From the NCBI GenBank assembly GCA_027627225.1, contig CM051029.1:3396404-3460403 (forward strand): 64,000 nucleotides of DNA. The letters run 5' to 3'. Origin of the DNA: Congeria kusceri (Eukaryota > Mollusca > Bivalvia > Myida > Dreissenidae). How positions within the stretch are numbered: position 1 is the stretch's first letter; every line of letters starts with the position of its first letter. The notes beneath the pieces are model-generated. The model did no database searches. It saw only the letters and a program-made list of their open reading frames with translations, and had not been told where the DNA came from. The position numbers and the translations under genes are program-made. Below are positions 5,642 to 42,066 of the stretch, in pieces.

Positions 5642-5667
5642 CACACACACACCCGCATGCACGCACG

Positions 5668-5728
<61 letters not shown>
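5642..5728. repeat. (CA)n microsatellite at left boundary of the duplication
   Basis: A CA run with imperfect CCGCATGCACGCACGC near its left end. Similarity to the region after 42 kb begins inside this tract. Sequence to its left (5.3-5.64 kb) is unlike the sequence left of the 42.0 kb tract. Confidence 0.95.
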
Positions 5729-5917: not shown

Positions 5918-6165
5918 CTTTGGACACACCGACTCGCACTGAGGACCCAAGCAGACTGAGGACTAAGGACAGTGGGGACGCCACACACACGCACATTGAG
6001 GACTCCACCCACTTGAACACACTGACTCGCACTGAGGACTAAGGACAGTGGGGACGCCACACACACGCACATTGAGGACTCCACCCACTTGGACACACCG
6101 ACTCACACTGAGGACTAAGGACAGTGGGGACGCCACACACACGCACATTGAGGACCCCCACCCAA
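5918..6165. repeat. 76-bp tandem repeat, about 3 copies (unit 1)
   Basis: GACTAAGGACAGTGGGGACG recurs at 5961, 6037 and 6113, a 76-bp period. Each copy continues with CACACACGCACATTGAGGA and CTCCACCCACTT. A short GAGGAC submotif recurs within each unit. Confidence 0.9.
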
Positions 6166-6784
6166 TGACAGTTTAGAACAATACGCACCTTTAATTAAGA
6201 ATATATTACATTTTATGATATTCATTTTAAAATATAGAATCTGAAATTTTTAGATTACGTATAATGTATTAGAATGCTCCATTTATGTACATCCTTAAAA
6301 AGCTATGATGGTAACCATGTGCGACATATTCTACCTGCACGTTTTTAAACAGAAGCGCATTGAAACTGAAAAAAACGAAGATTATAAAAATAAAATGTAT
6401 AATTGATAAGGTTTGATCACCTTATTTTGTTTTCGTCCCGAATATACATTGTTGTTGGGTAATTTTATTTTATTCAAAGCACTCGGGACAATCCATGCAC
6501 ACCCAGCGTCTTCGTCCTCTCTTTGACGTAGTTAACCGTAGCTTTCAAACGTTATGTTGATGCGGTGTCGAGCGTTGCGGCTGATTTCTGAGAGTTAGGC
6601 CAGAGTTTTTAATAAGTTGTTTAACGGAAGCGCCGAATCAAATTTGCCGAAAAGTGAAATAAAAATAAAAAGGGATTTTATATTTTATTTTTATGTTCTG
6701 CGCCGCTCTTTACAAAAGTACCGACCTGAAAAAAAGTACATAATACCTTAAGTTAACTTCCCGTTAAAACGTTGAATGTTGTGG

Positions 6785-17294: not shown

Positions 17295-19267
17295 TCATTT
17301 CCTTCTATTCAATGTTGTTCTAACAAATCCTTTTACCATTGTCCACGTTCTGTTCTTTAAACATTGATTCTTCTTTATTACTTGTTCACATTCAGACTTG
17401 GAAGGCAATGTTCCCAAATTTAAACATTTACGTAATTCATTTTTCACACAATTTTTCTCCTCCTCTCTCCACGGGGTTCTTAGCCCTTTCTTTGGGAAGT
17501 TTTTGCCTAAAATTAACATCAATAAAATTAACATCAATATATATTTAAATTATACTAACGAAACATCGTTTAAAACATGCATCACCATTCAATCGAACTG
17601 AATGGGAAATAAATATATAGACAAGGCGTTCTTAGTATTTTAAATGTACTTTCAGTGGCAACAGCTGACTTTTTCATACCTTTTTAATTACCCAATCAAC
17701 AGCTGTCAAACAGCACATTTGAATTTTCTTGTGCTTGTAAGATTGCCTTTTTTTTTAAATATCCAGTTATTGAGTGGAAATTTTTTTTTTTTTTAATTAC
17801 CAGTGATTAACAGTGATGTTGACCCATCACACAATCTCTATCCCTTTGCTATCTAACTTTATTGTATCCTTCAATAATTTCGTTTTTAAGTTATTGAGTT
17901 AACCTTGTTTGTTTCAGTACTTGTTACCTTGATCTTTGAACAATAACCTCATACTATGCAATACATATTAAATTGGTTTAGGGTAACTATGTATGAATAC
18001 TCATTGTCGAGTTAGATAATGGAAATAAAAATTGACTCTGTCACTCAAGTTTATGAAATTTGAAATTTTCAAGTGTCAAAGGTCATAAAGACACATTTCA
18101 AATTGAAGTAACCAAACCTTTAGGTTAATTTTAAAATTAAGACTAAAAGTTTTAGGTTTGAATGCAATCACTCGAGTCATTCCTGAGAAACACCCTTTAA
18201 CCTGATTGGACGCCAATACTTGGTCGAGTGGAATAGAAAAGACAAATTACATAATTAAACAATAATATCAGCTGAACAAATTTATTCTCCCTGGATTTTA
18301 TGCCATATTCAACAGTATTTCAGTCACATAACAGAGGTCAGTTAACCTACTAACACTTTTCCTAGGAAAGTGCAACTGCAAAGGGCGGCATAAAGGTTAA
18401 TTCAAATACAATATAACTTTACAGATATGTTTATGAAGAATTTCCAAACAAAACAATGGAAAACTGTAATGAGGACAAATAGAAAATCAAATCAGGATAA
18501 ATATTCCTTACATAGTTTCTTACGGGGTGGACACCATTCTGCATCGCTATCGCTACCACTATCACCATCCTCATTTTCTTCATTTTGCATGGAGACCCAT
18601 TCTGTATTGAAAACAAGTATTTATTAAGCAACCATAGGGAAATACAAAATTGGTTAATGGTGGTAGAATTGTATCAAGAGCTGTCGCAGGACAGTGGGTT
18701 TGCCAGCATTACACAATACATATGAACTCTATAAGGTAACATAATGACCCCAAAGATATGTGTGGAGTTTCAGTTGAATATGTTGATAGGTCAGTAATCA
18801 ATTAAATGCTAATTAAATAATGTGTTCATGTACTGTTACCCAAATTGTATCAATCGTTCTATTCTATTGTGAAACTGAATACATTGTGTCAAGTTTCAAT
18901 AGCTATAATGGTTACAGACAGAATTTTTTTTAGTAGGGTTTCTGTTTGTTGTCACAATTCTCTAGAAAAATAATAAAGGGGTTTACATACTTTGTTTCCT
19001 TGACGTAATGAAATCTTTTGAAGATTCGCCTTTGTCGACAGAGGTTTTCGTCAGATCTAAAATTTGTTAATTCAAACATTATTGTGATGTACCAGGCCAT
19101 ACACATACATAAAACTAATGAAGTGCAACAACATATTAACTTTACTAGGAAAAAACCTTCGGTTCAGCTGTATTATTTTTATCAATAAAGGTATGGATTT
19201 TAATTACCCTCCAGATGCACACTTATTTCCTCGTCTAAAGATTCATCACCAGAACTGTCTTCTAGTT
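17295..19267 (-). CDS. Exons 18-21: acidic linker and SANT/Myb-like C-terminus (copy 1)
   Basis: Exons 19208-19267 (LEDSSGDESLDEEISVHLE), 18991-19056 (LTKTSVDKGESSKDF...RKQ), 18524-18601 (WVSMQNEENEDGDSGSDSD then AEWCPP) and 17295-17506. All junctions are phase 1, matching the G left over by exon 17. The last exon reads TPWREEEKNCV...LGTLPSKSECEQVI...LKNRTWTMVKGFV and ends RRK-stop. Its W-x-E-E-E opening and R-T-W near the end resemble the SANT/Myb-like module that closes several uncharacterised animal proteins with integrase-like cores (from memory of the family). It lies downstream of the copy 1 nonsense codon. Confidence 0.75.
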
Positions 19268-22200
19268 CTGTAAACAGATAATTGGCATGAATGAGTTGCA
19301 CAAGGACATACTTATACTAGCTTTCCATAAACATAATAGCCATATATTTTATGCATTAATCCAATCAAATTTATAGCATGTTCATGCACACTCTCGTATT
19401 GCTTTGCAGCCAAACAATGTCAGTATGACCTGCATCAAAGGGTTTAAATTGCAAAAAAAAAGCAGAAACAAAACACCAAAATAAGCAAACCAATATACTC
19501 TGCCATCTTCCATTTAATTTTCATAATTAGCAACAATGTGGTTTAATATTTTAAAAGGATTGTAACTGAAATTCTTGTTGATAACAATGTTTAAACCATT
19601 TTGTTAAACCTCTTAACAATATCTTACCATCAAAGGTTAGTAAAGAGTGACTTACCAACATCAAGATCAATATGGTTGAGGTCTTTCCCCTCCAGGTCGG
19701 ATATTTTTCCTGCATTAAGCAAGTGTAGCACTTTTGTCACTTTTGCTATTTCTATCGTGCTCTGGGGAAGTCTGTAAAATTCACGGTGTACTCGAATGTC
19801 ATGTCCCATGAACTTGGCTAAAACATCTTGTTCATTTTCTGTTAAGCCCAACAGCTGACACATCGTCCCCAACTGTTTTCTTAGGTTAGTTGACTTTATT
19901 CTTTCTGGATACTTCAATCCTGCTTCCAATGATACTTCCCGTAAGGTTTTTGATCCCCTGTAAGGCATATGTGTGTTGGGAGGGGCAAACACATACTTAG
20001 ACTCGATGGCCAAGTTCTTTCTTAATTTCAACAAAATTTCAATGTGGCTCTTCATTTCCGCAGTAAAAATTACCGCAACCTTGCGTCCACGTTTTCCTCT
20101 GGTTTCTACAAGAATGTGGGTCTCGCACAATGTTTGTTCGAAATTGGTAAGCGACTTTTTTACTTCAGCGTCCACTTTTGGGTTTAAAGAGGCCCTCAAA
20201 AAGTCCTCAACTTTAAGTCGTTGGGCTTCTCCTGCCCTTTTTCTGTTAAACAGGATGACCTGTGCCAACACTGCTTTGCATAGCTTGGTGTACATTTCAG
20301 GTTTTTTGGGAGACGTCCTGGCTGCCTCAATTTCAGATTTCAGATATGTAGAAAGGGTGACAACATCTTCCACCAGAGGCAACAGTTTCGGTGTGTTATA
20401 CTTCACTGAGGCTAATGAGGCTCTTGCTGGAGACACTATGCGCTCCTCCCACTCATCTTCATACAACTCAATAATAGAGTTGGCGCGTTCTCTTAATTCT
20501 TCATCCTCCATTATGTTAGCTTGATTTCTAACAATTTTAGCACACTTTTTGATGACATGTCCTACTTTAATAGCAAATGAAGGTCTTGATCACTGCATGG
20601 TCTCGCTATCGAAACCAGCTTCTGATCTTACAGCATTTAAAAGAAGTTTCCATCGTGTTGGAATTAAGCAGTCTTTCAAAGTCAACATTCTCTTACTTGT
20701 ATCCTTCATAGATATCACTATCCTTGCCAATTCACGCATCCTTTGACCGATGTGCTGGTGCATATGGTCTTGATCTCCTACTTTTTCATATTTTCTTGAT
20801 CCAAACTCGAGGATAAGTGGATCAGACCTGACAACAACCGAAATGAGGTCATCCCGCATTTTGCTAAGACCTTTTCTGTTTAGTTCCTGAGAACAATCAA
20901 CAGGCAATAGTAATTTAGAATTTGCAATCGGTGAGTCGCTATGAATGCCTGCTGGCCTTACAACACATGTCTTGTGATGCTTCCACATATCACTTGCAAC
21001 AATTTCGGATTTACAGAACTCACAAGGAAGATACTTTCGCTCAACATTGTTGATGGATGGCCTGTATTTTGGAATAATAAACCCCTTTCCAGTTTCACGA
21101 ACTTCTTTGTTGTGGACCCAATTCCCTTTTGCTGCAAGTTCAATCCAAGCTCGCCTTCGTTTCTGGGATCCTTTCGGCAATGCTAATATTTTGGCAACTT
21201 CCAATTCATTTGAATGTTTACTCGCAAGATGTCTTGACATTTTTGTATTCAATACCTGACAGTAGACACAACTTTGGAGCTTTTGCTTTCTTTTTCCAGA
21301 CAGAGATCCTGAAGTCTGGACAAATATTTTTTTACTTGGTGAAAATGCTTCACACCCGACAATGTCCGAGTCATTATCACTGCAATTCACTATGTCATCG
21401 GATATTTTGGATAGAGGGCTGATGACCTTTCCACTGATTATGGTGTGGAAGATCCACTCTTTATCAACACATTGAGCTGAAACATACACAACGTAATATC
21501 AGTGCACAGTTTTGTTTTACATCAGCTGTCAACAGACATCTGACTCCAGTAAGAACAAATGCAAAGGACAAAACGAACACTTCTGTTATGTTTCGTGATA
21601 GTACAAGAGCTTCCCATGTTTCTAATAGTACAAGAGCTTGCCAGCACAAACTGTTTCAGGAGTATTGCAGTAATTTTTTATAGAGATAAAAGGTGGATTG
21701 TAACGATCATTTATAAATTTTTACACAGTACACATTATTATTTTTTTATAGTTACGTTAGCAAGCAGTTGTTCAAAGAATGATTAATACCAGGTAACTGT
21801 AAGCAATATAGTTTCAAGTGTTCTTAATCTTTAACGACCAAAGGGATAATTCACTCAATACATATCTTGAGAAAAATGATTTCGGACACATTGCTATTTC
21901 CATGTGTATAGAATATTGGACCGTTAATCATGGATATTTTCTGATAAAGTGATAAAATTCAAATTAAATTTTGACAAAAAAAACTCTTACATTGGAACTA
22001 TTGAACAGTAAGAAAAATATATACATGATGTATGAAGTTCTCCATCAGCGCAAATGAAGATAGTGTCTACAGACGCTATCAACACCTCATGACCACCAAT
22101 TCTAGTTAAAAGACATCGGAGATCGTCTGAAGATAATAAAATAAAGTTGTTCCACTTCAATATCTGTTCATGTTTTATCATTCATTTCTCTGAAATAACA

Positions 22201-25200
22201 TAAAACTATATATAACAGGGATGCCCTCAATTTCAATAATCATTCTGTTGTAACGTGTCCCTTCCTAAATATACAGGGTATCTTTTTTAATGTGTCGTCA
22301 CAGACACTGATGCCCCCACAACGCATATCACATTACACTAACAGCTGATTAGAGGATATTATAAGTTATATAATAATAACAAATTGAACAGGCAAGGACA
22401 GTATGTGAGCAAGTGGAGACAGTGTGTGAGCAAGTGGGTTCAGTGTGTGAAAAAGTGAGTTCAGTGTGTGAACAAGTGGAGACAGTATGTGAACAAGTGG
22501 AGACAGTGTGTGAGCAAGTGGGTTCAGTGTGTGAAAAAGTGAGTTCAGTGTGTGAACAAGTGGGGACAGTGTTTGAACAAGTGGGTTCAGTGTGTTAACA
22601 ATTGAGTTCAGTGTGTGAACAAGTGGGGACAGTGTTTGAACAAGTGGGTTCAGTGTGTTAACAGGTGGGGACAGTATGTGAACAAGTGGGGACAGTGTGT
22701 GAACAAGTGGGTTCAGTGTTTGAACAAGTTGGTTCAGTCTTTGAATAAGTGGGGACAGTGTGTGAACAAGTGGGGACAGTGTGTGAACAAGTGAATTCAG
22801 TGTGTGAACAAGTGGGGACAGTACTCGAACAAGTGGGTTCAGTGTGTGAACAAGTGAGGACAGTATGTGAACAAGTGGGAACAGTGTGTGAACAAGTGGG
22901 GTATAAATGATGAGCTAATTGACATTCTTTAACTGAAATTCCATTAGTTACCTTCTTTAGTTTCAATCCAATCACTTCCAAGGAATTTGAATTCGAAAGG
23001 ATCATAATTCTCATACGCAGACCACTCGCCATATGTTACTGCACTCTTCACAGCATATCTTTCATCCTGTGCAATAATAAAGAAACAAGAAAACCATAAT
23101 AACCATTTGACCGGCCTGAATATTGACTGAATAAATTAAAACAGTCCTGTGTTTCTAGTCTGATCACATCTGCATTCTTCCACTGGTTATGGGGCATGAA
23201 TTAATTAAATGCGGGTTTACAACCAACCATAACCTTGCTTGAAAACTTTTGTTTCATGTTTGCACAAAAAATCGTAAGTTATTTTCCACACAAGCTATAA
23301 CATGATTATATATGATGGAATACACAGGACAGTACCTCTATAATAGCTCATCAATCACTTAATAATGTGGCGAGTAGGGGGGGGGGGCAGTAAAATTAAG
23401 TTTATTTTTATTGTACTCTTACCAGCTCTTGCAAGCAACCTGTTGCAATAGAGTCTGTCACCCACTTTGCACTGACAATAGATTTCTCTCTGCCAACAAG
23501 GCACTGGAATAGTTTCATTGTTGAATGTTTAGTGTGTCCATTTCCTGCTGAAAACCAAAAATAAAGGAACTGATCTTGTTGTGCTGCCAAAGATCACAGC
23601 AATGGCTAAGTTGACATCATGTGACAGGCAAACTGTCTAATGTCAACATTTTGTTTGTAAAGGATTAAATGAAACATTTCCAGGGTAACACTGATTGTAT
23701 GATTGCAAATGCATAAAAGGTACAAATATAAGCATTTCAGCTTATTTTAATCCTGTCAAATTTTGTTAATGGAATCTATAGATTTGTCACTAGTAACCTT
23801 GCAACGCTTATTCAACTTGTGACATTGTATGCGGACAGATCACTGCCCATGTCTTTGCTTAAGGGCAAATAACAAAGTAATATGTAGATCACTGGATATG
23901 AGTTGTTTCTTGCAAACTTCATGGTTATGACGCATAAATGTGGAGTAAGTTCACTCCATAAAGTTATAACATTTAATGTGGACTGACCTATCGACCAACA
24001 AACCGACTGACAGAGTGACTCCAGTATACCCCTCTCTCTTCAATTACGAGGTAATAATAATTAATTAAAAAAAAAAATGTAAATTTCCTCTTGCACACTT
24101 ATGCCTACACATGTGGAATGTTTCAGATTTACTGTAGAGATGATATATTTCTGCAGATTATATTTAAGACTTAATGGGTTAACTGGTAGTAAAATTGTTG
24201 ATGAAAATGTTGCAAGTAATACATGTAATCATGAAAACGACTCACAACGTTCAAATGAATTAATTTTTTTAACTGTTAAATAATTTAATGAACATCACAT
24301 ATTTAAATGTATTCCATTGATAGTGACTTTAAAATTCTGATTAAACGTTTCCGATTTTTGTGAACATTTTTCGACAAAACACTACATGATTATGTTTAAA
24401 TGTTGAATGTGATACCCTTTAATTGTTAAATACCGGCAATGAAAGTTTGCTATATTACATGTCATTGAGCAACAGGCATGATAATACTCCTACTGGATAT
24501 GACACTGGTTATAATTAAACATTTATAAATATATTGATAACTGTATAGCCATTATATTTCTTATACATATGATGTATTTGTGATTTGCCTTACATGCTGG
24601 AAGAACGAGAATATCAGCCTCTTCTGCGCTCGTTACAAGCTTGCAGGTTCGAAAAATCTTGAAAAATCCCTTAAAAATAGATACAAGAAATTGCTCAATA
24701 CTTGTATAAAGCATAAGAAGCACACTGACAGAACATACTCATGTAAGGACAATTTGATAATAATATGCTTAGGATTTCACACACACATATATTAATATAC
24801 ACTTATTTTTGCAAACATTTATTTTCATTTAAATTATTTCATAGTGAAAACTGATGTGTGCCTATACGACATAGATGTCTCCATATTATACAGATTATCA
24901 CAAAACTCTTATGTTGTCTGTTTGTTTGTTTGTTTTGTTGAATTTTTTGCCGTTTCAACAGTATTTCAGTCACATCATGGTGGTCAGCTAACCAACTCAC
25001 ACTTTTCCAGGGGTAGCTGGTTTAACTGTACTAAGCGCACATACTTATGCAAGTAACTGACAACTGCCCTCCTTGAATCAGAGGTAGGGGGAGAATGGCC
25101 GTAGAAAGAACTTCATGACCAATCACCACACAAGTTATGTGGCCAGGCCAGGGATCAAACCTGCAATCTTCAGATTTGTAGTCCAGCCCTCTACCAACTG

Positions 25201-28200
25201 AGCTAGCCAGCCTGGTTACTGATGTCACCAACCACAACTTCACCAAAATACCCATGTGCATTAGTTAAAAAGCTGGTGAATATAAATCTAGAGTTTATTC
25301 ATTCTTGCTGTCACCAATGCAGGCCTTTCCCCAGGATTTTGTTAAGGCACAGGGGCATAGACCCACAGTTGGCATTGGGTTCTACTTTTTTCTTAATTGA
25401 ATGTGTCCCATATTAATTTCTACATTACTCCAGAGCTAAACAAGAGGGCCATGATGGCCCTAGGTCGCTCACCTGATATCTATGTATGAAGTTTCATTAA
25501 AATATCTAGAAAGGTTTTCAAGTTATTGAGCGAAAACTTTTAGTAACTGTGACCTTGACCCCACCCAACACAAACATAATGCAAGGTCTTGATATTAGGT
25601 ACATGTATCTACATATTAAGCTTCATTAAAATATATCAAAGGGGTCTTCAATTTTTTTTTATTTCACCTAATGACCTAGTTTTTGCCTCGCGTGACCCAG
25701 TTTCGAACTCAACCGAGATTTCATTGGAACAAATGTTCTGAAAAAGTTCCATGAAGATTGGACAACAAATGTGGCCTATAGAGTGTTAACAAGGTTTCAC
25801 TACAGCCATATAAGGAAAACTGCCCCGCCCCCTGGCGGCCGTGTTTTTCAACAGACCGGAACTATTTTCGGCCTTGGCCGAGATATCATTAGAACAAATG
25901 TTCTGACCATGTTTCATGAAAATTGGACAATAAATGTGGCCTATAGAGTGTTAACAAGGTTTCACTATAGCCATATAAGGAAAACTGCCCCGCCCCCTGG
26001 CGGCCATGTTTTTCAACAGACCGGAACCATTTTCGAACTTGGCCGAGATATTATTAGAACAAATGTTCTGACTTAGTTTCATGAAGATTGCACAATAAAT
26101 GTGGCCTATAGAGTGTTAACGAAGTTTCACTATAGCCATATAAGGAAAACTGCCCCGCCCCCTGGCGGCCATGTTTTTCAACAGAACGGAACCATTTTCG
26201 AATTTGGCTGAGATTTCATTTGGACAAATGTTCTGACAAAGTTTCATGAAGATTAGACAATAAATGTGGCCTATAGAGTGTTAACGAGGTTTCACTATAG
26301 CCATATAAGGAAAACTGCCCCGCCCCCTGGGGGCAATGTTTTTCAACAGACCGGAACCATTTTCGAACTTGGCCGAGTTTTCAGTGGGACAAATGTTCTG
26401 ACCAAGTTTCATGAGGATTGGACAATAAATGTGGCCTATAGAGTGTTAACGAGGTTTCACTATAGCCATATAAGGAAAACTGCCCCGCCCCCTGGCGGCC
26501 ATGTTTTTCAACAGACCGGAACCATTTTCGAAATCAGCTGAGACATCATGAGAACAAATGTTCTAACCAAGTTTCATGAAGAATGGACTAAAAATGTGAC
26601 TTCTAGAGTGTTAACAAGCTTTTTCTTTAATTTGACCTAGTGACCTAGTTTTTGACCTCACGTGACCCAGTTTCGAACTCAGCCGAGATATCATTGGGAC
26701 AAATGTTCTGACCAAGTTTCATGAAGATCGGACAATAAATGTGGCCTCTAGAGTGTTAACAAGGTAAATGTTGACGACGCACGACGCACGATTCACGACG
26801 GACAAAAGGTGATCCTAAAAGCTCACAATGAGCACGTTGTGCTCAGGTGAGCTAAAAAGCACATACACAGATAATAATTGGAAATTTAGGTACAGGGGTG
26901 TTCCTGAATTAAAAATTCAGGCACTGGGGTACCCTTCTTTGGAAATTCAGACACAGGGGTACCCCTGATTTGGAAATTCAGGCACAGGGGTGCCACTGTG
27001 CTTAAAAGCCCTGTGGAAATGCCTGCAATGGTGAAACCGTTAGGGGACTAAAAACTGGTAAAAGTAAAATGAAAATTCTGAAGACTCACCAAATTAACTG
27101 ACATTCCTGAAAACAGTATGTTGATGACACATTTTCCTGCATAACCTGAAAAATGATACCATTTATTATTGCTGTGAGTAAATATCTAATCAAACAACTA
27201 GCTATTTTGTACAGGCCACTCACTTCTTTCATGGTAACTAGGCAGTCGAAGAGGCAACTACATCCCCGGCTGACATTCTTTTACACTAAAGTGGTGACTT
27301 ATGACTTCAGAACATCTTATAAATGACAAACTTTTCATGACAATCCTTCAATGGGTATAGGAGATATGAATCATATACGAAAGCAATGAAGGGTAAATTA
27401 GTGTTCTTCAACTGTGACATTGACCTTGAGCCGGCGTAACTGACTCATGCCTTCTGCACATCATCTCAATGACCTTAACATTGTAACAAAATTTCATGAA
27501 AACCCTTCAAAGGGTATAAGAGATATTGAGCGGACACGACAATGGAGATTCAAACATTTGACCGTAAAGTATGACCTTGACCTTGAGTTGGCATAACTGA
27601 CTTGTGCCTTCTGCACATTGTCTGAATTTCCTACACATTTTAGCCAAGTGTCATTAAAATCCTTTAATTGGTATAGAAACATGGAGAAGACACAAAAATA
27701 AAGGCTGTAACTCTTGACCTTGAAATTGGGCCAGCTGTCTGACTCATGCCGTCTGCACATTGTCTCAACGAAATTAACATTTCAGCCAAGTTTCATGAAA
27801 ATCCTTTAAAGGTAATAAGACAAACAGAGCCGACACGACAATTGAGGTTCAAACCTTTGACCTTGAAGTATGACCTTCACCTTGAGCCAACATGACTGAA
27901 TCATGCCTTATGCACATTGGTTCTATGCCCTTAACATTTGTAGTAAGTTTCATAAAAATCCTTCAAACGGTATGTAGCGGACACGAAAATGGAGGCTCAA
28001 ACCTTTTACCTTGAAGTACGACCTTGACCATGAGCAGGCATAACTGACTAATGCCTTCTGCACATTGTCTTAATGCCCTTAAGGCAAGTTTCATGGAAAT
28101 CTGTCAAAGGGTATAGGAGATATGGAGCGGACACAAAAGTGTTAGGGACAGAATGACGGATGGACGGACAACGGGCATTCTTAAAATACCCCTCCCGCTT

Positions 28201-31200
28201 TGCGACGGTGGATTAATAAGTAGTTTCTTGACCAAAAATGAGACAAACACGATGAGCGATGAATTCTCATTCAATATCTACATCATGGATAAAAGGGGTT
28301 TGATTAAAACTGGGAGTAGGGTAAATAACCCTTCTATTTTCTACAACTATATTCAACAGCACTCTGAAACTTTTTGAGCCTTAGAAAAAATCCGCATAGC
28401 TAACTATGAGGAAAAATGAAACTCCAAAAATATTATTTTTTGGGGGGAACTTCTGGTAGTCTTTCATTTAAAGCTAGTGACCAATTGCCTCGACGATACA
28501 AGAAAATACATACAACAAAACATTAAACATGAACATTTATTAAAGCTGGGGTCACCGTCTTGGAACAGTCAATGCAAAGTATTTGGGGTTTAAACCGGTT
28601 TTATGGATAGCCTAAACTCACACTTAGCCCAGAATTATCACAAAACACACAAGTGAAAAATAAATTTTAACGATGAAATGATGAATGATGCCTAAAACAT
28701 AATAGCCTTATTTAAATCCAGAAAAAAATGTTCAATAATACCTGCTGTCTTGTTTGCTAACATGGAGGTAGCCCTCTCTTTTTCGACATTCGAAGCATCA
28801 TCATCATCATCATCATCATCATCTATAAAAAACAAATTTTTGCATAAATTTATATGCATAACTGAACACAAAAAGGTTTGTTGTGTTTAAGACAATAACA
28901 CATCTTTGTGTGCTCTTCACATCATATTATTTTTAGAAATGTGCACCAAATTATACAAACCTTCTGCAAAGGATTCAAAATGATTGGGACCTTCCGACAG
29001 AGACCTTTTGTTTTTTTAAGCTCATTTGTGAATACAGTCTAGTGCCAAATGTTTAAAAACAAACAACCGATAACAGTTAAATAATACCTGCTGTCTTGTT
29101 TGGTACGATGGAGGTAGCCCCATATTTCTCAACGTCCAAAGGGGGGCCATCATCATTGTCAATATCATCATCATCGTCCCCATCATCGTCATCATCATAA
29201 ACAATGTCCCCGTCATCGCCATCATCAGCATCATGGTCACCATCATCATCGTCGCCTGAAAAGGAAATACACAATTTAGCACAAAATTATATAACCATAA
29301 ATAGAAAGGAATTTGTGAATACAGTGTAGTGCCAAATGTTTAAAAACAAACAACTGATAACAGTTAAATAATACCTGCTGTCTTGTTTGGTACGATGGAG
29401 GTAGCCCCATCTTTCTCGAAATCCAAAGGGGGGTCATCATCATTGTCCCCGTCACCATCACTGTCCCCGTCATCGTCATCCTCGTCTGAAAAGGAAATAC
29501 ACAATTTTGAATAAAATTATTCAGGCATAAATAAACAGGAATTTGTGAATACAGTGTAGTGCAAAATGTTTAAAAACAAACAACCAATAACAGTTAAATA
29601 ATACCTGCTGTCATATTTGGTACGATGGAGGTTGCCCCATCTTTCTCGAAATCCAAAGGGGGGTCATCATCATCGTCCCCGTCATCGTCATCATCATTGT
29701 CCCCGTCATCCTCATCCTCGTCATCGTCTGAAAAGGAAATACACATTTTTGAATAAAATAACATAACCATAATTAAACACTAATTTGTTAATACAGTCTA
29801 CAGCCATCATTAATGATAACACACACATTAAAATAGTTTAATGGTACCTATTGTCTTGTTTGTGAACATGGAAGTAGCCCTCTCTTTCTCGACATCGAAA
29901 GGGTCATCATCATCATCATCATCATCTGAGAAGGATAAACACATTGTCACATAAAACATATTAAGCATAAATAAAAACTAGAAGGTTTGTGGTGACATTT
30001 TTTGTATTTATTTTTGATTAATTATCCTTTTCTCCAGTAAATTCTATTTTTATAATGTCTTAACATCATCCTGCAATTGAAATATTAAGTAAAAGTCGTC
30101 TTGTACGACTGAAATGGTGTTCATGTTACTTTACTTCATTGGCATAGCATGCAAACTTTATTTGTAACGCTAAGAGCATGTAAAGTGTATTATGGGGTCT
30201 GGGAAGTCACACAAACAATTATTTTGGTCCTCATGTACTTTACTTTAGAGCATAACATCTCCATATTAATTTTAATTTTTTAAAGACATTTGTTGTTTCG
30301 CTTTGTTTTTTTCACAGAGGTCTTAATAATGTGTTGAGCCCTAGTGTTTTCCCTAACAACAGCAAAAGGGTCGCTATTATAGCATAACAATTTTACATCT
30401 AGAATAAACAGGGTCTTTTTTTAATAAAATGATTTTCTGTTTAGTTTAGCTTAACCCAACATGGCCCACCTAATCACAAATTTTAATCTATTAGGAACAA
30501 ATAGAAAGGCATTTGAATTGATTTATACAATTTTTTTCTTGTCAACACTACATGGATAATGAACCGAAAACATACATTTAATGCTCGTACGTAACAATGT
30601 TATACATTGACCTTCTTTATCTTTATGACCGGTATGTAAAAATCATATAGCATTGAAGAGAATTATATGAACCGGCCAATATTTTTAGTACATGGACCAA
30701 TGAGGTAAGCATCATTTATATCAAACAAAAAATCTCATGTCATTTTTTTTACAGATCAAACTAATTTGAACAAACTTGCTACAGTATCAACCAAGGAACT
30801 TTGGTACCTAAATATTTTCAAATCGGGATTTTGTTTTTTGACAAAAAAAATTCTGAAACTTGCTTGAACCATTTGTACTATTATACACATGATGATCCAC
30901 CTGGTTAAAATGTTCATTATAATATATGGCAAAAAAAAACCATTTCAGCTCCAATGGAATTGAAGTGACCAGCCAGGCAGTCACAAAGTGTACATGGACC
31001 AAAGCTGCCTAGCCGGTAGCTCTTTACCATAGCGTCCTCAGTAGATTTTACTATTTCTCAAAGATTATAAAGTTGTCCTTCTTTATCCTCTATAACTGGT
31101 TTCGGTAAAATGCGATAGAAGCAACAAGAGTATATGGACCTGTCACTATTTTTTATATGGACTGCACATGCTAAATATTCATGAATGACGTCACCGCCTG

Positions 31201-34200
31201 GGTTAGTCAGAGCTTAGTTGCACTGTGCAGTAGCATTTATTGTATTTCACTGTTGCAGGCACTTTTAAACCGTTATTTTTAAAACAATTTAAAATTTGAA
31301 ATATTAACACTTTATAAAAACACAAGACTTCAACATTTGAAGATGTTCTGGGTGAGTACTTTAAAGAGTTTAATCGTTTTTGTCAAGTTGTTGTGCTGTT
31401 AAACTCATTAATACACACTTTCAGGACGAAAAGATACAATTTTGGGCTGCCTGGCTGGTCACTATAATGCCATAGGGCCCTCAGTGGGGTTTTCTATTTC
31501 TTAACTATTAACACAACGTTAATCATTTACACAATGTAACAGTTACACATGAAACTGCTAAAACATTACCTATTTCGTTTTCCTGATTATGCTGAAATAT
31601 TTATAGTAAATACACATACAAAACAGCCCTCGAGTGGATGAACTGTGCTTAAAAATATGTGGGCCCAGACAATAACAATCCGTTACAGAGAGAAGATATT
31701 TGTTTTATATAGCGGACATTTGTTGGTGTCAGTGTAAAATTATATGAATTCATGAGTGTTTTCTTCTTGTTTTTGTGTTTAACATTTTAATTGCTTTCTG
31801 TATTGATTTTAGAGTTTGATTGGATTTTTGTGTGGAAATCATAACATTAATACAAATTAAACCCATAAAACACATCTGAAAATAGCAAAAGATTGTCTGT
31901 AATGAAACATTTATATTTCAAAATACAAAATAGTCCTTACTTTATTCCTCCAAGGTAAATTGTTTGTATCATCCCCATAGTCGTAACGTAGCTCTTCTCC
32001 AGAAGCAATGTTTCGGGCAGCGAACAAACAAAGACGTGGATAGTTATTGAAGATCATTAATTTCATTTTACTATTGCATTTAAATGTTCCTTCTGCTGCA
32101 TCGTTGACCAACCCACCCAGGTGGTTTCTAGTTGTTCTAGAAGCATCAACCCTTAAAAAGTAAGAAATTACGTTGCTTTTATATTACTTATATTTTAAAT
32201 AACTTTAATATAACAACAGCTGTCACAGAACAGTGAGCTTGACTTTTCTTGTTCTTGTCAGAGTTTCTGGCTTTTTTTTTTATAAAACAAACTGTATGTA
32301 TTATTGTATGGTAGGAGCCAAATAATGTAAGTTACTACTGTTATCAAGTAATTTAGTTATATTTTTTTTTTCTAATTTGCAAATATCTCTCAAGACACCT
32401 AAACCTTGATTTGAATCTGCCAACACAAATGACAGACATGGCGAAAGACTGCCACAATTTACAGGCCAGACTGTCCTACGAAGAGGAAAAATTTACAAGC
32501 CAGTTGTAAATTTCACCGGCCTCAATTTTGTATGTGCTAAACATAATTGTGTTTTACTGTTCAAAAGAAATATTTATACATATTGTTCTTTAGTGACAAC
32601 TTTACTGACACATATTCCTGATACATTCACAAAAATAACATTGGAGATTTTATTATTCTACTTTTTTTTCTATTTCATATTCTTTTAACAACTTTTGCTT
32701 GAGAAAAGAAATTAATTTCTTTCATATTTTGGTCAAAACTAGTAGATCTATTCAGTATTGTATGCAAGCCATAAAGCAAGTCAAACTAAATGTGTTTTTT
32801 ACAACAAAATCCTTATTTTTAATATGAATACAGGGAAAAGAACGCTGATTTAAAAAAAAAACTTTAAGAGTTTCACTTTCGAAAAGGACTTTTCTACCAC
32901 AAACTTTCATTAAAATGTTACCTCAGCCAAATAAAATAAAAAATCATGTAACAACTAGTTATCATATTGCATACCTCCTCTATTGATACACATTAGTAGT
33001 TATATATTTTAACATCAATAAAGTGTGATTTTTGACAGTATCTGTGTGTGTATTAGATTTTTATCAAGTGCACTGGGAATTTCCCATATGGCCATCGCCC
33101 CCAGAAGACTTGTTAGTTGGGTAAGGGGAATACTGTGGATACAGAAGACGCCCCATTCCAGAGATGACCCTGAGTCTTTTAGCGCCCGGTGTGAAGCACC
33201 TAGTACACTGCACCTCGGTGTAACGTCTTAGGTAGGTTAGGGTTGAGCGGAGGATCAAACCTGCCACCCGAGTTCTGGTACCAGTGTTTCCACTAGACCA
33301 CAGATCCGCTCGACATGATCTGAATATGCAATTAGACAATGAAAGAGCATGATCAACTCGCTCATTTGCGTACACTTTCTGATTGGCTGATTGGTAATGT
33401 TGGTAATGTTGACCTTTGGAATCAGTATCGGAAATTATAATTGTGTTGGTGGTAATCCATTTTTGAACAGGCGTTCCTTCCTGCCATCATATTTTTTCCT
33501 GGAATAGCCCTCATTATAATGAACATTTAAACTCCCCTTTCATTTGCACTTACCATAGCATTTTCCCATGAAACATGAAGCCAAACAAAAAATTGTTTCC
33601 GTTTTCTTCTCTGCGGTTTGCTTCATCCTTGTCAATTCGATCCCCAGTGTATTCAAGGAGGAACTCTCCTTTTGCAAATGTTTTTTTTGTAAAAACTCCG
33701 TAACCAAAGAGAAATGAAAACCACATAAATACAAGACTTTGACAGTATTGCAAGGAGCATACATGCCATAATTTTTCAAGTCCAAATCCATTAAAATTGT
33801 CGGGACATTCCAAATGATCTTTCATTTCACCTTTACTTTAGTCAGTGATCAGTACAGTACATGTACTAACAAAAACTCTAAATTTCTGGCCAATATTGAC
33901 GATTAATGTGTTTAAGAATTTCATGCTGATGAACACAAACTTCTGCATTTTCAGGAAGTAAACATACAGGTGCACCATGTGCGTGACGTCATAAAGTGAA
34001 TTGTGGGGTATGCCTCTATTTGACGTCCAATCGAGACAGGAGTATTCCCATTGAACATGCATAAATCATCTAACGCGATGTGCGCGCATCGGGCACTGTT
34101 CTTGTTTGACAAATCATCAGTACAGGGCTTTTTTTATTCTATAGCTGTAGCCTTATACAGGCTACATCCCCTCAGAAATTTGCTTTAAATTCATGCAGTT

Positions 34201-37200
34201 TTCCCCAAAAATGAAACTTATACCTGGAAATTTCATTCCCCTATGAGTAACAGCGCACGAAAATTATCCCCAAATTTGGTTTTCACGCGCTTTTTCCCCC
34301 CATATTTGAAGGCTAGGGCCCCTTCCCCCGAGCCTTAGAAAAAAACCTGCAGTATCAAGATTTTTTAAACATTCTCACAATATCGTTACTCTCCATGTTC
34401 ATACAATGTTTTCACAATTATATCTTTATATGTACTTTTACAGTTATTGCAGTATTTAGCGTAATTCTATTTTAAGTAAAAGTCATCTGACAATTGACCT
34501 CTGGAAAAGTTTAGGTTCATGCGTGATACCAAGTTTCATGATCATTATCACAAGTTTTTTCATTTGTTGCAGACCAACCAAAAGATAGATGAACAGACGA
34601 ACATATAGTAAACATATAGCCCAATGTGTATACCAAATTTCACGATAAAGCCTTGTGTACTTTTTTAGTTATTACAATATTAAGATTTGTTTCATTTTCT
34701 TTGAGAGACATGACCTTTGACCTTTGACCTTTGAATAAGAGATACCAAACATGTCACAAAAACAGATGGGAGGGCAAATCTCTGAAGTGGGGGCATAAGG
34801 TACTGGAGTAACCGTAACTGTTAAGTATTTGAGTGGCAGTTTAAAATTATTTATTTTTACTTATAATTCAAAAGAAAACCATACATACCAATATGTTTGG
34901 AAACTATTTTTTTTTGAAGGCCCTCTTGGTCCACCCCAGCCTTGCACCAAAACTTGGCGCATGATGATGGAGATTGTCTCCGCTAAATACAAACAAGTGC
35001 TTTGAATATCAGGTACTTGTTTTAAAAAGTTATACAAACTAGAAATGTGTCACAAACACTGATGCCCCACAACACGTTTGGACACACACAAATCCACTAT
35101 ACATGTATATTCAATAGTAGACAATAAGACAAAGGGCCGAAATTCAGCCAAAACTGGTCGCAGTCACTTTTCCATTCTTTACGATCATCTACGCTTTTAG
35201 GTCATTCAACTGTTAAAGATTCAGCGAGATGCAAAGAGCAGTTAAAAAAAAATAATTGGCACTATATATTCTATAGTGGAAAAACAGGCAAAGGGCCATA
35301 ATTCTGACAAAACTCGTCTCAGCCAAAACAGTTTCTTTATGATCATCTACTCATTAAGGTCATTCAACTGTGAAAGTTTGAGCGAGATCCACCCAATATT
35401 TTAAGAGGAGTTGAAAACACAAAATTTTGGGGCTACAGTGGAAAAACAGACAAACAGCCATAATTCTGCCAAAAATTGTCGCAGCCACAATTCCTTTATT
35501 CACCATCATCTACAGTTTGAGCAAGATCCACCCATTAGTTAAAGAGGAGTTGAAAACACAAGCTTCAGGCAACTATATAAAGGGCCATAATTCTGCCAAA
35601 AATCTGTACAGCCCGAATTCCTTTCTATACGATCAACTACACATTAAGGTCATTCAACTTTGAAAGTTTGAGCGCGATCCACCCAGTAGTTAAAGAGGAG
35701 TTCAAAACACAAGCTTCCTGACGTACGTACGAACGGACGGACAAGTGCAATGCTTAATGCCTCCCACTCTGTGGGGGCATAACAAACTATTCATGTTTAA
35801 AATTGATTAATTCACCGATTGATATGTGTTAAATGATTCAGATTGTGGCACAAACAATTCAATAGACAAGTGTCTGTTTAGTGAAAATTTCATACTTGTA
35901 CAAAATATTTAGTATTATTCCAACAAATAAACCAAACACACTATGTCAATTGCTCATATACATGATTTCGCTCAACATGGCATTTCTAAACAACTACTTC
36001 TCAGGAAAGAATTGCGTATTGATTCTGCACAAAGAATAGCACCACCTATAATGCAGTTTTGGCAGTTCAGTCATTGCTGAAGTTTTCTAACTTACATTTC
36101 AATTTTTTTTCTCAGTTCTCTTTCTTTTATTTGAATGATTTGTATCAATCTTACACTATGTTTCTTTAACTAAACAGTTTCAAATGCAAATATATGTAAG
36201 TTACCGTATTCTACCGAGTATAACACGCACCCGTGTATAACGCGCACCGATTTTTTTACCCCAAAAAGGAGAAAAAAAGATTTCAAGACTAGAAACTAGC
36301 AAATCGGACCGAAATGGCCGCCATTTTACTATTGCGCAATCCGTCGATCGCCTGTCTCAAATGCCAATAAGCGTCTCAAATTACTCAACAGGTCATGGCA
36401 TAAATTGCTCAACGAAAGCTGTCAATTAAGAAGTGCAAAAAACACCAAAAAGACCCCATTCACACCTGCCGTTACCCGCGAAAATGAAGATACAATTTGT
36501 AGGTTAGATTTTTGGATGTAATCATACATTATGCAGTTTTGGCAGGGATGGTCACAAAGGCTCAGTCCTTGAGGTGAGCTAAAAAAGGTACAGATGACAA
36601 CTCACTTGTTTCAATGAAATCTTTAGGCTTGTCTTCAGCTGAAAAAAAAAACAAGCCTGACATTGAACTCATTTGTCGTGTGACCATAGGTTCACCTTAT
36701 TTAATAAATGTCACAAAGGCAGCCCTGCAGTTTGTGCTTCTTGTCAACTGATCTTTTGATACAATATGAATTGTATTGATTCCATAACCAGGGCTTTTTC
36801 TCACCATTTTGGGAATATGACCTATACCCGTCTAATTGGGAATTTTAGCGTCAATTTATTTTAAATTGGGAAAATGTACTATTGTTTGATTTATTACATT
36901 TGAATAATTATTGATAAAACTTACATAAAAAAGAAAATTTTTAATATAAACATATCGGTAAAATGGATATTACAACTTCAAAACGCTTTATTTCTACACT
37001 TGACAGCTCTATTTCCAAACATCTGAAAGTCAAACGATCAATTGGGAATTTTCGGCATGGATTTGGGGAAAAAGATACTTTTTGCCACTGGGAATATGAC
37101 CGAATAATGGCTATAAAATCAGCCAAAAAAAGCCCTGATAACCAACAGTATTTGAACAAAACTAATTAAAACATTGCTGAAAAATATTTTTTTTTATCAT

Positions 37201-40200
37201 AATTATAGTCTAAGAGTAAAGAGTATCATGGTGGCGTAAAACGCAGGCTGTTTGCACTCGTCAAGACTGTCATGACATACATGTAACCAATCAATCAAAT
37301 ATTTTGTAAAAGCCTCAAGTATGGTTAACACTGCTATAACAATATTGACTGGAGTGGACCCCTGGATTTATATTGTTATGCATCCCAGCGTTTTTCCTCT
37401 ATACCATTCCCAAACCTATTTTCTGGCTATTTTCCTCAAATTGAAGGTAAAACTTTCCCAAATCAGAGAAAACATATTCATAAAGGACCATTAATGATTG
37501 ACGATGTGCTTTTTAAAAATTTTGTTTTATCCATGCGTCTACCAAAATTCAAATCAGCTACTGTGCACCGCTAGGGGAAGTAACTGCGTTTGGTGGCGCT
37601 GTTATCGAATCGTTTCAATTACAATTCATTGTTTCTTACATACATGGCATCTGAGAATGGGAACCAACTGAATTGCACTGCGTTTTTGCGAGTGGCAATA
37701 AATCATTAAACTAATAATACGGAAAACCCTTCAGGATGCAATATTTTATATAGTTTAAAGGCTTCATTAATGATCAACAAGCAGGTTTTTCTTTCCTTCT
37801 TTGAGACCCACCGAATATCGGCCCTTTCTCCTTGACGTATTTTTCCCCTATGTCATTGAATTCAGGGTTCCCGCTGTCGATCGCCATTGTCGCCAATGGC
37901 GACAAAATAAAAAATTTGGCGACAACTTTTTGAATTTGGCGAAAGTAAGTGGCGACAACTTTTCAAAAATGGCGATTTTTCAAAATTCCACATTTTTTCT
38001 GCGTAATATTTACTTAAAATGACATAAGAGGCTCTGTTTACCAGCCGCTTTACGGCAGTCGCTGTGCAATGGATTTCCGTGATGTAAGCGACACTGCTGA
38101 AATCAATGGAGCGTGCTGATTGCCGGAAAGTGGCAGATTATGGTGATAATTGGGATTATTGGTGGTGTTGTTACAAGTTATCTTAATTGGTCGTCAGTTT
38201 TATTGCTTCAGAGATAAGACAACTGTGAAATGTACCGACTTTGCGCTGAAGTGTGAAGTGTTTGTCACAGTATAGGAAGCAGATTAAAGCCTGTTAGGTT
38301 GACAACAATAACAATCAAAAAGGTAAATATGGATTGTTTTTAGCATAATCGGTGTGTTTAAAGGCAATAATTAAACATTTTGCCTTGATTAGTGCTATAT
38401 AAACATGAGATAATATTCTCTGTTTCACTCGTCAAAATGGCAAGTTCAGAGTGTATAACGCCTGTTAAAAAGTGAACGTTAGATTCAGATGATGTTGAGA
38501 CTCCTTCAAAAATGTATAAAACTCTAAATTCACCAGCTAACAGAAATTTCAAAGACAGTTGGAAATCAGATTTCCCGTTCCTCAAATATGATTCCAACAC
38601 AAAATCTATGCTGTGTGAACTCTGTATATCCTCAAAACTGAGCAATTCATTCACTACAGGATGCACTGTATTGAAAAAGGAGAACATTGTTAAGCATATG
38701 AAAACCAAAGGTGAGATTTACTGTAGAGTGAAGTACACAAATACTTAACTTATTTAACTGTGTTCTGTACAAGGCACTATGTAGTAGTTCATATAATATA
38801 ACGCGTATTTATATTGTTTATATGCTATTATTGTTATTAGCAGAATTTTTAATGTCTTATTTTCTACAATGCAAATTTGGCGACAACTTTGTGAATTTGG
38901 CGAAAGTAAGTGGCGACAACTTTTTGAATTTGGCGAAAGTGGCGACAACTTTTTGATTTTGGCGAAAGTAAGTGGCGACAACTTTTTAAAGCCCAGATGG
39001 AACCCTGGAATTTTCCCCAAACGATCCATTTTCCCCCAAAATTGCCTATATATTAAACAATTAAAAACAACTACGTTTGTAAATATCGTAAGAGTGCAAC
39101 AATAGTAACGATAGTTAAAATGGAGGATATTGAAAGGTAAACATATTAAATATATTAATTCAAACTCAGTTAAATACTCCAATAACATAACAATAACACT
39201 TAAGTGTGTACGGTTATAGGTTTTTATATTTCCCCCAAACTGCCAATAACGCGCTTATATTTTGCCCTAAATCCGGTTTTTCTCACTATTTTTTCCCCAT
39301 AAAAATGAACGGCCCTTTTCCCCCTAAGTCGGAAAAAAACCCTGACAAGGAGATTGTCAATATTGATGTATATTCTAAAATAAATTAACATGCAAACCTG
39401 TGTCTCTGATGCAACTTGTGGAACGAAACTGAAACTTAGACACATTCAAGTCTCAAGTAACACGAGCAATTTCCTGTAAAAAGATGCTTTTCTGAGCTTA
39501 ATTCAAGTACAAGAATAAGTTGAACAAGTTGTTTTCAGACAGGTTTTTTTGTAAGGCTCGGGGGAAGGGGCCCTAGCCTTCAAATATGGGGGAAAAATAG
39601 CGCGTGAAAACCAAATTTGGGGATAATTTTCGCGCGATGTTACTCATAGGGGAATGAAATTTCCAGGTACAAGTTTCATTTTGGGGGAAAACTGCATGAA
39701 TTTAAAGCAAATTTCTGAGGGATGTAGCCTGTATAAGGTTACAGCTGTAGGATAAAAAAAGCCCTGTCAGAATTTAACTTATTGGTTTGACATCCTCTTG
39801 ATAGCTTTTAAAGAATAAGATAAAATTCCCAATTGAGCTGAAAACGACGCTAATTTACCCAATTTGACCAGTACCGTTACTATTCCCAAAGTGGTGAGGA
39901 AAAACGTTGTATCCCAACAGCGTCAAATTTGGGGCCGAAATTCGGCCCCATTCCCAATCTCAAAAAGTATATATTTGTCCCAAATGACAGCCTAAAATTC
40001 CCAATTGAAGCTTTCAAAGCAAAAAAAATAAAAAATATTTTTTATATATATATATTTCAACTTTCAGTTCATCTCCCTATCCAGCTCTATGAGTTGAACC
40101 TTAGTAAATATAATATTGAAAACACTTTTATCATACATGCCATACGTCCCGATCTCGATTTTTTATTTCACCTTAACTTTAGTCATTAGTCAGTATAGTA

Positions 40201-40878: not shown

Positions 40879-40893
40879 TTATTCTATGTCAAT
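34948..40893 (-). CDS. Exons 1-4: short N-terminal exons of the large gene
   Basis: Exon 1 (40828-40893) contains the ATG at 40878: MADRLCGMTDLTRGKQA, with an in-frame TAA immediately upstream. Exon 2 (39398-39428, FRSTSCIRDT), exon 3 (36606-36638, EDKPKDFIET) and exon 4 (34948-34977, NLHHHAPSF) are 30-33 nt each with GT/AG borders; their phases chain exactly (0, 1, 1, 1). KPKDFI before a SET domain is typical of KMT5A-like proteins, and joining exon 4 to exon 5 restores SFGYGVF. Exons this small found by eye are provisional. Confidence 0.5.
36200..36590. repeat. Dispersed repeat remnants
   Basis: ACCGTATTCTACCGAGTATA and ACACGCACCCGTGTATAACG resemble the ends of widespread DNA-transposon families. 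The stretch closes with CAGTCCTTGAGGTGAGCTAA, a truncated right end of the GCTCACCTGA element type. Confidence 0.5.
36789..37137. mobile_element. 349-bp MITE, CAGGG ends, TSD ATAAC
   Basis: Starts CAGGGCTTTTTCTCACC and ends AAAAAAAGCCCTG, with ATAAC on both sides. The interior carries TTGGGAATTTT and GGGAATATGACC twice. Parts resemble 39.83-39.91 kb in reverse, another decayed copy. Confidence 0.85.
37863..39007. mobile_element. Nested hAT-like non-autonomous element, TSD GAATT
   Basis: Starts CAGGGTTCCCGCTG and ends CAGATGGAACCCTG, with GAATT on both sides. Both subterminal regions carry GGCGACAACTTTTTGAATTT / GGCGAAAGTAAGT tandem units of about 35 bp. It holds one zinc-finger exon remnant (38437-38748). 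The CAGGG ends and this finger suggest a hAT-group element; 5-bp target duplications are reported for some hAT subgroups, although 8 bp is classical. Confidence 0.75.
38437..38748 (+). pseudogene. Transposase N-terminal zinc-finger exon remnant
   Basis: Reads MASSECITPVKK, then an in-frame TGA, then reopens to NFKDSWKSDFPFLKYD, CELC, TGCTVLKK and VKHMKTK. The order W-x-x-x-F-P-F-L-x-Y...C-x2-C...TGC...H matches the N-terminal BED/TTF-type finger of ZNF862/hAT-related proteins. It ends at a plausible donor (AAAG|gtgag) with no second exon, so the catalytic part is missing. Confidence 0.65.
39540..39766. mobile_element. 227-bp MITE, inverted relative to 34.1 kb, TSD TCAGA
   Basis: Starts CAGGTTTTTTTGTAAGGC and ends AAAAAAAGCCCTG, flanked on both sides by TCAGA. 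Its interior is the reverse complement of the element at 34123-34349. Confidence 0.85.
40030..40820. other. Intronic sequence, dispersed-repeat tail only
   Basis: Intron between exons 1 and 2. From 40.33 to 40.60 kb it carries a dispersed repeat tail (GACAGACCGACAAACCATCC, GCGTGACTCCTATATATCCC, TTTGCGGGGGTATAAC) like that at 23.8-24.05 kb. Nothing else is recognisable. Confidence 0.5.
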
Positions 40894-41747: not shown

Positions 41748-42000
41748 ATTTTAAGTGTGTCGCTTCATAGGAAAAAAAGCGACAAAAAAAGAAAACGACA
41801 CACTGGTGAAAAAAATAACCCGAGGTTAACGACGAATGGGGATACCCTATTTTTTCAATTTTATTTTGTGTTTCATGCAAAATTATGAAGAATAAAGGGT
41901 ATTTATACTTTTGACAAGTGAGGACGTCCTCACTCTGCCACTGAGACCCCACTCGTTGCTGTGCATACCCATTGACGGCCTCAGTGTCCCGTACGTGCAA

Positions 42001-42001
<1 letters not shown>

Positions 42002-42066
<65 letters not shown>
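42002..42066. repeat. (CA)n microsatellite at the duplication junction
   Basis: Uninterrupted CA run. Sequence to the right matches that right of 5.73 kb; sequence to the left (CAGTGTCCCGTACGTGCAAC) has no match left of 5.64 kb. The unit junction is therefore inside or next to this tract. Confidence 0.95.

Follow-up and report, generated by a model that had tools for sequence, protein, structure and literature searches.

A probable tyrosine recombinase transposon with SET and BRCT-like domains in the bivalve Congeria kusceri

To what kind of genetic unit does a gene belong that joins a SET domain, a BRCT-like region and a tyrosine recombinase (YR)? The question is raised by a locus of the bivalve Congeria kusceri, which was analysed within a stretch of 64,000 nucleotides, hereafter called the window. 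An earlier note on this DNA had proposed that a host gene captured a recombinase of the Crypton type. Our analysis indicates that the region is very probably one damaged copy of a DNA transposon of about 36-37 kb, moved by its own tyrosine recombinase. The features of the window are collected in Table 1.

Table 1. Features of the element and of its gene in the window
Feature	Position	Strand	Remark
CA/CG-rich simple repeat at left insertion point	5641-5728	none	
Complete element, unit 1	5729-42002		36,274 bp from end motif ATACTTGCATACGG to end motif GTACGTGCAACC; from window self-comparison and the same end motifs at other sites
Three 76-bp subterminal repeats, TGAGGAC-rich	5955-6182	+	
Last exon T4, conserved tail of about 70 aa and stop	17295-17506	-	
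Tail exon T3, acidic	18524-18601	-	
Tail exon T2	18991-19056	-	
Tail exon T1	19208-19267	-	
Large exon: end of second BRCT, two Cys/His motifs, YR	19656-21476	-	in-frame TGA at 20590-20592
BRCT exon B4, second BRCT begins	22025-22126	-	homology
BRCT exon B3	22952-23066	-	homology
BRCT exon B2	23423-23547	-	profile and homology
BRCT exon B1	24594-24669	-	profile and homology
Exon V	27090-27145	-	
Acidic exon D5	28742-28822	-	
Acidic exon D4	29088-29255	-	
Acidic exon D3	29375-29485	-	
Acidic exon D2	29605-29727	-	
Acidic exon D1	29848-29925	-	
Mini exon	31570-31591	-	22 nt, restores phase
SET3 exon, end of SET	31941-32151	-	ELRYDYGD
SET2 exon	33554-33704	-	AG acceptor missing in this copy
SET1 exon, pre-SET part	34889-34982	-	tblastn with Tegillarca P0029; 5' boundary and start uncertain
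Subterminal palindrome GTGAGGACGTCCTCAC	41918-41933	none	16 bp
(AC)n junction of unit 1 and unit 2	42003-42066	none	
Second unit	42067-64000	-	cut by window end; exons T4 to V at 53631-63524
Unit 2 counterpart of large exon	55969-57834	-	stop-to-stop frame open, 622 codons; folded and searched

Exon chain and domains of the gene

The chain rebuilt on the minus strand runs SET2-SET3-mini exon-D1 to D5-V-B1 to B4-YR-T1 to T4, with all phases in agreement. Counted from SET1, the spliced product comprises 1250 codons with one internal stop, and its domain order is SET, acidic repeats, BRCT, BRCT, two Cys/His motifs, YR, acidic region and conserved tail. Of the in-phase chain of 21 exons and about 1228 codons claimed in the earlier note, the part from SET2 to T4 held, whereas the proposed first exons E1 (40878-40828) and E2 (36638-36606) found neither homology support nor a proven phase into SET1, and the copy is not intact. 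What had been called an Asp-rich spacer corresponds to the five acidic exons D1-D5, in phase with the chain. These five (window 28742-29925, minus strand) are consecutive and alike, and the array apparently arose by exon duplication.

The SET domain gave a full-length match to Pfam PF00856 (E = 2.3e-15). Among solved structures the best match was KMT5A/SETD8 (E = 5e-18), ahead of EZH2 (9.5e-13), in keeping with its original description as KMT5A-like. In most SET enzymes a His stands beside the SAM-contacting Asn. Here Asn-Asp was found where Asn-His is expected, and the teleost relatives that were read carry the same change; the enzymatic activity of the domain is therefore not certain. That the SET merely travels along as cargo, or serves for binding as a dead domain instead of being a life-cycle enzyme, is conceivable if somewhat doubtful: the replacement recurring in teleosts would agree with it, but the domain is full length, retains the YDYGD motif and has been kept beside the recombinase in distant lineages.

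A profile made from the window sequence and four relatives matched BRCA1 BRCT structures (E = 2e-6), and BRCT_2 was matched by all five profile rows at E of 0.1 or less, so that the BRCT-like domain recognised earlier is predicted to be a tandem BRCT. By itself the window sequence scored 18.4 bits, under the Pfam cut-off of 27.3 bits, which was passed by the Mercenaria and Ruditapes relatives and not by those of Mytilus and Mya. In the AlphaFold model of the Mercenaria relative the BRCT part has mostly pLDDT below 50, and the structural look-up rows for this model concern the recombinase part only; the BRCT assignment consequently rests on profiles.

The recombinase is the firmest part of the domain chain. 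Its R...R...GH-x8-Y motif is present as first reported, and the catalytic residues R421, K469, R540, H566 and Y575 are each conserved in at least 90% of 47 aligned sequences, across which the two Cys/His motifs, also named at the outset, are invariant or near-invariant. The AlphaFold model of the recombinase exon of unit 2 (pLDDT 86) predicts a XerH/Cre fold, matching XerH, Cre and the Tn1549 integrase over the core-binding and catalytic domains. Comparison of the second half of the exon with PDB sequences gave no match, while the fold search did. With hmmscan at E of 1 or less, the recombinase matched Phage_integrase and a weak zinc finger only; neither DUF3504 nor DUF3435 was matched at this threshold, which is informative only if the library includes both models. 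The tail of about 70 aa is conserved among relatives, but it had no Pfam match that would justify the SANT/Myb-like label once given to it.

Unit 1 carries two defects. Its recombinase exon is interrupted by the in-frame TGA (Table 1), and SET2 lacks the preceding AG acceptor that is present in both of the other copies read there (two of the eight fetched stretches contained that place). The unit 1 copy is therefore probably non-functional. Open exons exist in other copies, the recombinase exon being open (622 codons) in 38 of the 63 whole-length copies. A shortened frame of 340 codons was seen in 12 of these 63, and one of 516 codons in seven (on contigs C16, C7, C15, C17, C1 and others). Damaged copies thus also appear to have been amplified, perhaps through the action of intact ones.

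Copies of the element, their ends and their insertion sites

Self-comparison of the window revealed tandem units that recur about every 36.3 kb with 98-99.5% identity, the second of which (42067 onward) the earlier note had overlooked. Unit 1 has a single recognised gene, on the minus strand, and a scan of 20 open frames recognised no reverse transcriptase, cargo gene or nimaviral core gene. Two further observations concern its interior. A frame at 38476-38748 on the plus strand, opposite to the gene, matches zf-C17orf113 (PF25431, E = 1.9e-8, above cut-off) and is probably a piece of some other gene or element, and a tRNA-like match at 25140-25212 on the minus strand (31.2 bits, threshold 29) is probably a tRNA-derived repeat.

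It is very improbable that the unit is a degenerate or minimal endogenous DNA virus integrating via a tyrosine recombinase, as nimaviruses do at telomere repeats. Its size is virus-like, and according to passages of PMC10871703 simple repeats are the insertion sites of nimaviral recombinases, which possess a C2H2 domain. A repeat-rich frame (22366-22914) also matched Baculo_PEP_C (3.8e-5) and NPV_P10 (0.0021), both below the curated cut-offs. However, that frame is a tandem repeat matching nine unrelated families simultaneously, and the baculovirus-named matches were therefore judged spurious. The other 19 frames were scanned without recognising a capsid, polymerase or other viral hallmark, and 68 pattern matches in viral contigs yielded no confirmed relative of the recombinase.

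The genome (1.55 Gb, 1071 contigs) was then searched for copies. After subtraction of five second fragments of listed copies, 125 matches left 120, namely 73 of the window family and 47 of other families. The window recombinase family thus has at least 73 places at 89% identity or more among the best candidates scored, and 63 of these listed places cover the entire 319-aa query. In 72 of the 73 listed copies the SET exon lies upstream on the same strand at a distance of 9.6-13.8 kb; the sole copy without a SET match begins 385 bases into its contig. Among the matches listed, three SET places of the window family had no listed recombinase. The same left end, in the expected orientation, was found 13.6-19.8 kb downstream of the recombinase, again in 72 of 73 listed copies, and the reversed pattern, used as a control, gave no genome match. 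The left-end pattern had 94 matches in all. Of these, 22 could not be assigned to any listed recombinase copy, and they may represent relatives, copies in decay or derivatives of reduced length.

Since there are at least 73 places and the left end is fixed in 72 of 73, the reading as a host gene was rejected; the gene belongs to a multi-copy element, dispersed and in tandem, that carries chromatin domains. Because the introns between SET and recombinase are kept in 72 of 73 copies, the element appears to move as DNA. For the same reason, retrotransposition of the DIRS/Ngaro type, via an RNA copy, was ruled out. The recombinase exons of the 30 best-scoring of the 73 copies diverge by 0.13% on average and by 0.52% at most (435 pairs), which points to a recent burst: the family has recently multiplied. 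The same 30 copies contain 12 synonymous and 20 non-synonymous variants, so that selection within the present burst is unproven.

Ends were fetched for 17 other copies, and the stretches read contained 14 left and 13 right ends, with both ends in 10 copies; three left ends lay outside the first-read stretches and were later listed by the pattern search, and four right ends lay outside the stretches. ACAC or ACGC, which make up 0.7% of the 4-mers of the window, precede each of the 14 left ends read beyond the window, and ACA continues after all 13 right ends. In the pattern search (n = 72) the two bases before the left end were AC in 50 cases, GC in 21 and CA in one, with a pattern that itself began with AC and allowed three mismatches. 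The flanks read differ between copies, except for pure CA-repeat flanks, and at one site (contig C3, L061/L086) the left side has a short CACAC only. No long inverted repeat was found, and ACA/CAC-type sequence lies on both sides of the element. The two ends share a weak inverted match of about 10 bp, which 407 of 20000 random pairs equal in score; a terminal inverted arm is suggestive only.

Copies are dispersed over many contigs and partly arranged in tandem, neighbours being 36.3-37.1 kb apart in the window, on C17, C2, C145, C1, C14 and C16 and in one pair on C7. The tandem junction reads right end, (AC)n, left end, both in the window and at one place on C17; the four stretches fetched for other array junctions contained one whole junction, one right end alone and, in two cases, neither end. 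These head-to-tail units, together with a host-like, intron-rich gene, would suit a macrosatellite, in which segmental duplication amplified a host gene after its capture of a Crypton-type recombinase. Yet the dispersed copies share the end motif, have different flanks and occupy CA-rich sites, and several recombinase families coexist in the genome. The fixed ends largely refute the macrosatellite, which we regard as extremely unlikely.

The palindrome GTGAGGACGTCCTCAC has 153 exact places in the genome versus none for the reversed control, and both it and the TGAGGAC repeats look like binding sites. The same palindrome, with CACAC after it, is present at an end that lies 16 kb from a recombinase of 62% identity and probably belongs to that recombinase. 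The palindrome also recurs at a spacing of 11.5-12.0 kb (assembly G000, C3:28584294-28630810, C1:7869575-7881608 and C2:61476557-61488446); these arrays are perhaps shorter or non-autonomous tandem relatives.

Relatives in the genome and in other animals

The 47 listed places of other recombinase families in the genome are 40-62% identical to the window recombinase. Among the SET matches listed, a SET lies upstream on the same strand at 2.5-28 kb in 22 of the 47 and downstream only in one, and 24 have none within 40 kb. All five members of the 61-62% family are without a SET match within 40 kb upstream, again among those listed, and the 25 places without an upstream SET weigh against the main reading.

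Seven teleost predictions (P0064-P0068, P0071 and P0073) contain SET and recombinase in one chain, including those of Anabarilius (P0065), Alosa (P0066) and Sparus (P0068); some of the seven are named 'N-lysine methyltransferase KMT5A' and others are uncharacterised. Tegillarca P0029 joins a partial SET to the recombinase. BRCT and recombinase share a chain in Mercenaria P0004, Ruditapes P0060 and Mytilus P0059, the last under the Pfam cut-off. The combination is therefore not unique, related designs being present in bivalves and ray-finned fish. The same domain order was recovered elsewhere in part, as SET-YR or BRCT-YR chains, but no single predicted chain among the database relatives contained SET, BRCT and recombinase together. 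These chains, with the SET upstream in 72 of 73 copies, indicate that the three domains belong together, as had been claimed from the window.

Could the element instead carry two neighbouring genes, one for a SET or SET-BRCT protein and a separate one for the recombinase? Some annotated relatives are without SET (for example P0014 and P0019), and the exons of the window cannot alone prove a single transcript. Against two genes, the phases join throughout, the recombinase exon contains the end of the second BRCT, and there are the seven teleost SET-YR chains and the BRCT-YR chains of Mercenaria, Ruditapes and Mytilus. We consider two genes unlikely, and retain the single chain.

The recombinase parts of Alosa P0064, P0066 and P0067 are identical over 513 aa, and Anabarilius and Alosa (P0064-P0067) agree at 95.5% in the recombinase part and at 95.4% in SET. 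Alosa and Anabarilius are fish of different orders, for which such identity is high; horizontal spread, strong constraint and contamination could each account for it. The Asn-Asp common to teleost and bivalve SET domains favours, at the sequence level, a single old SET-recombinase fusion. A prokaryotic origin was rejected, as 34 pattern matches in prokaryotic contigs gave no confirmed relative.

A different multi-copy frame of reverse order, with a YR-like part followed by a C-terminal SET and no introns separating the two, was also observed (L014:4696-6885 and L009:4281-6296, both on the minus strand, and L013; also on G000 C15, C17 and C10). Its SET is matched at E = 2.3e-14, and its YR-like part was recognised from a weak Phage_int_SAM_4 match and otherwise by eye; no database relative of the frame was found. 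The frame suggests that SET and a recombinase were joined on a further, independent occasion.

Proposed mode of movement and comparison with known systems

The element is best read as Crypton-like in logic, with a chromatin modifier fused to the recombinase that, we infer, moves it. By analogy with tyrosine recombinase elements, as described in parts of PMC3212892, the recombinase would join both ends of the element into a circle with an (AC)n core at the junction. This core could recombine with a CACAC-like sequence in host CA-repeats, giving integration, or with that of a copy already in place, giving head-to-tail arrays. The SET might methylate chromatin at the donor or target, on a lysine of a histone or of another protein, and the BRCT might read a phosphopeptide, for example a damage or replication mark; both roles are put forward with low confidence. 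Jointly they would time or place excision and integration in chromatin. That simple repeats can be targeted by such recombinases is illustrated by endogenous nimaviruses in parts of PMC10871703.

More broadly, we propose, tentatively and at somewhat less than even chances, an undescribed superfamily of large animal transposons common to bivalves and ray-finned fish, whose recombinase carries a KMT5A-like writer of histone marks and, in bivalves, a phosphopeptide reader, so that the mover itself would set or read chromatin state and steer insertion into CA-repeats. If true, transposition would be coupled to chromatin marking within one protein. A recombinase with a built-in methyltransferase raises the question of whether selfish DNA places marks on host chromatin to its own benefit. 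Database names may need correction, since certain fish proteins named 'KMT5A' resemble those of transposons. Large transposons moved by recombinases are best known from fungi. If very young and almost identical copies were at hand in an animal, excision, circles and targeting could be tested there directly.

In the open-licence literature searched, no account was seen of a recombinase fused to SET or BRCT, nor of an animal transposon that targets CA-repeats, which does not prove their absence; in the available part of PMC6431247 both mentions of tyrosine recombinases fall in the section on bacteria. Cryptons are YR-only DNA transposons with a proposed circular intermediate, and the present element resembles them in having a YR as mover, no long inverted repeats and, as in fungal Cryptons, a short sequence common to both ends (PMC3212892, in part). 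Animal Cryptons are described in the same excerpts as having no C-terminal domain and no terminal repeats, and three CryptonA recombinases as matching DUF3504, whereas this element has SET and BRCT on the N-side, a tail, a unit of about 36 kb and, provided that the library includes the model, no DUF3504 match at E of 1 or less. By this comparison, size and fused domains set the element apart, and its working would be Crypton-like.

The Starships of fungi are likewise large DNA elements with a YR gene near one end, as sections of PMC11623301 describe; here, in contrast, the host is an animal, DUF3435 was not matched as far as the library includes that model, no cargo was recognised in the frames scanned and chromatin domains are fused. 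Endogenous nimaviruses of crustaceans share a YR with a C2H2 motif and insertion in simple repeats (PMC10871703, in part), but they have viral gene content and a telomere repeat as target, whereas the frames scanned here held no convincing viral gene and the target is CA-rich sequence.

The teleost predictions are alike in the succession of SET, linker, Cys/His motifs and recombinase in one chain, with the tail matched in six of seven. They differ in having no BRCT match. SETMAR, the SET-mariner gene of primates, is one domesticated gene, and its transposase is of the DDE type. It resembles the present case in that a SET is joined to a transposase, and differs in that the SET described here belongs to a multi-copy element with a recombinase.
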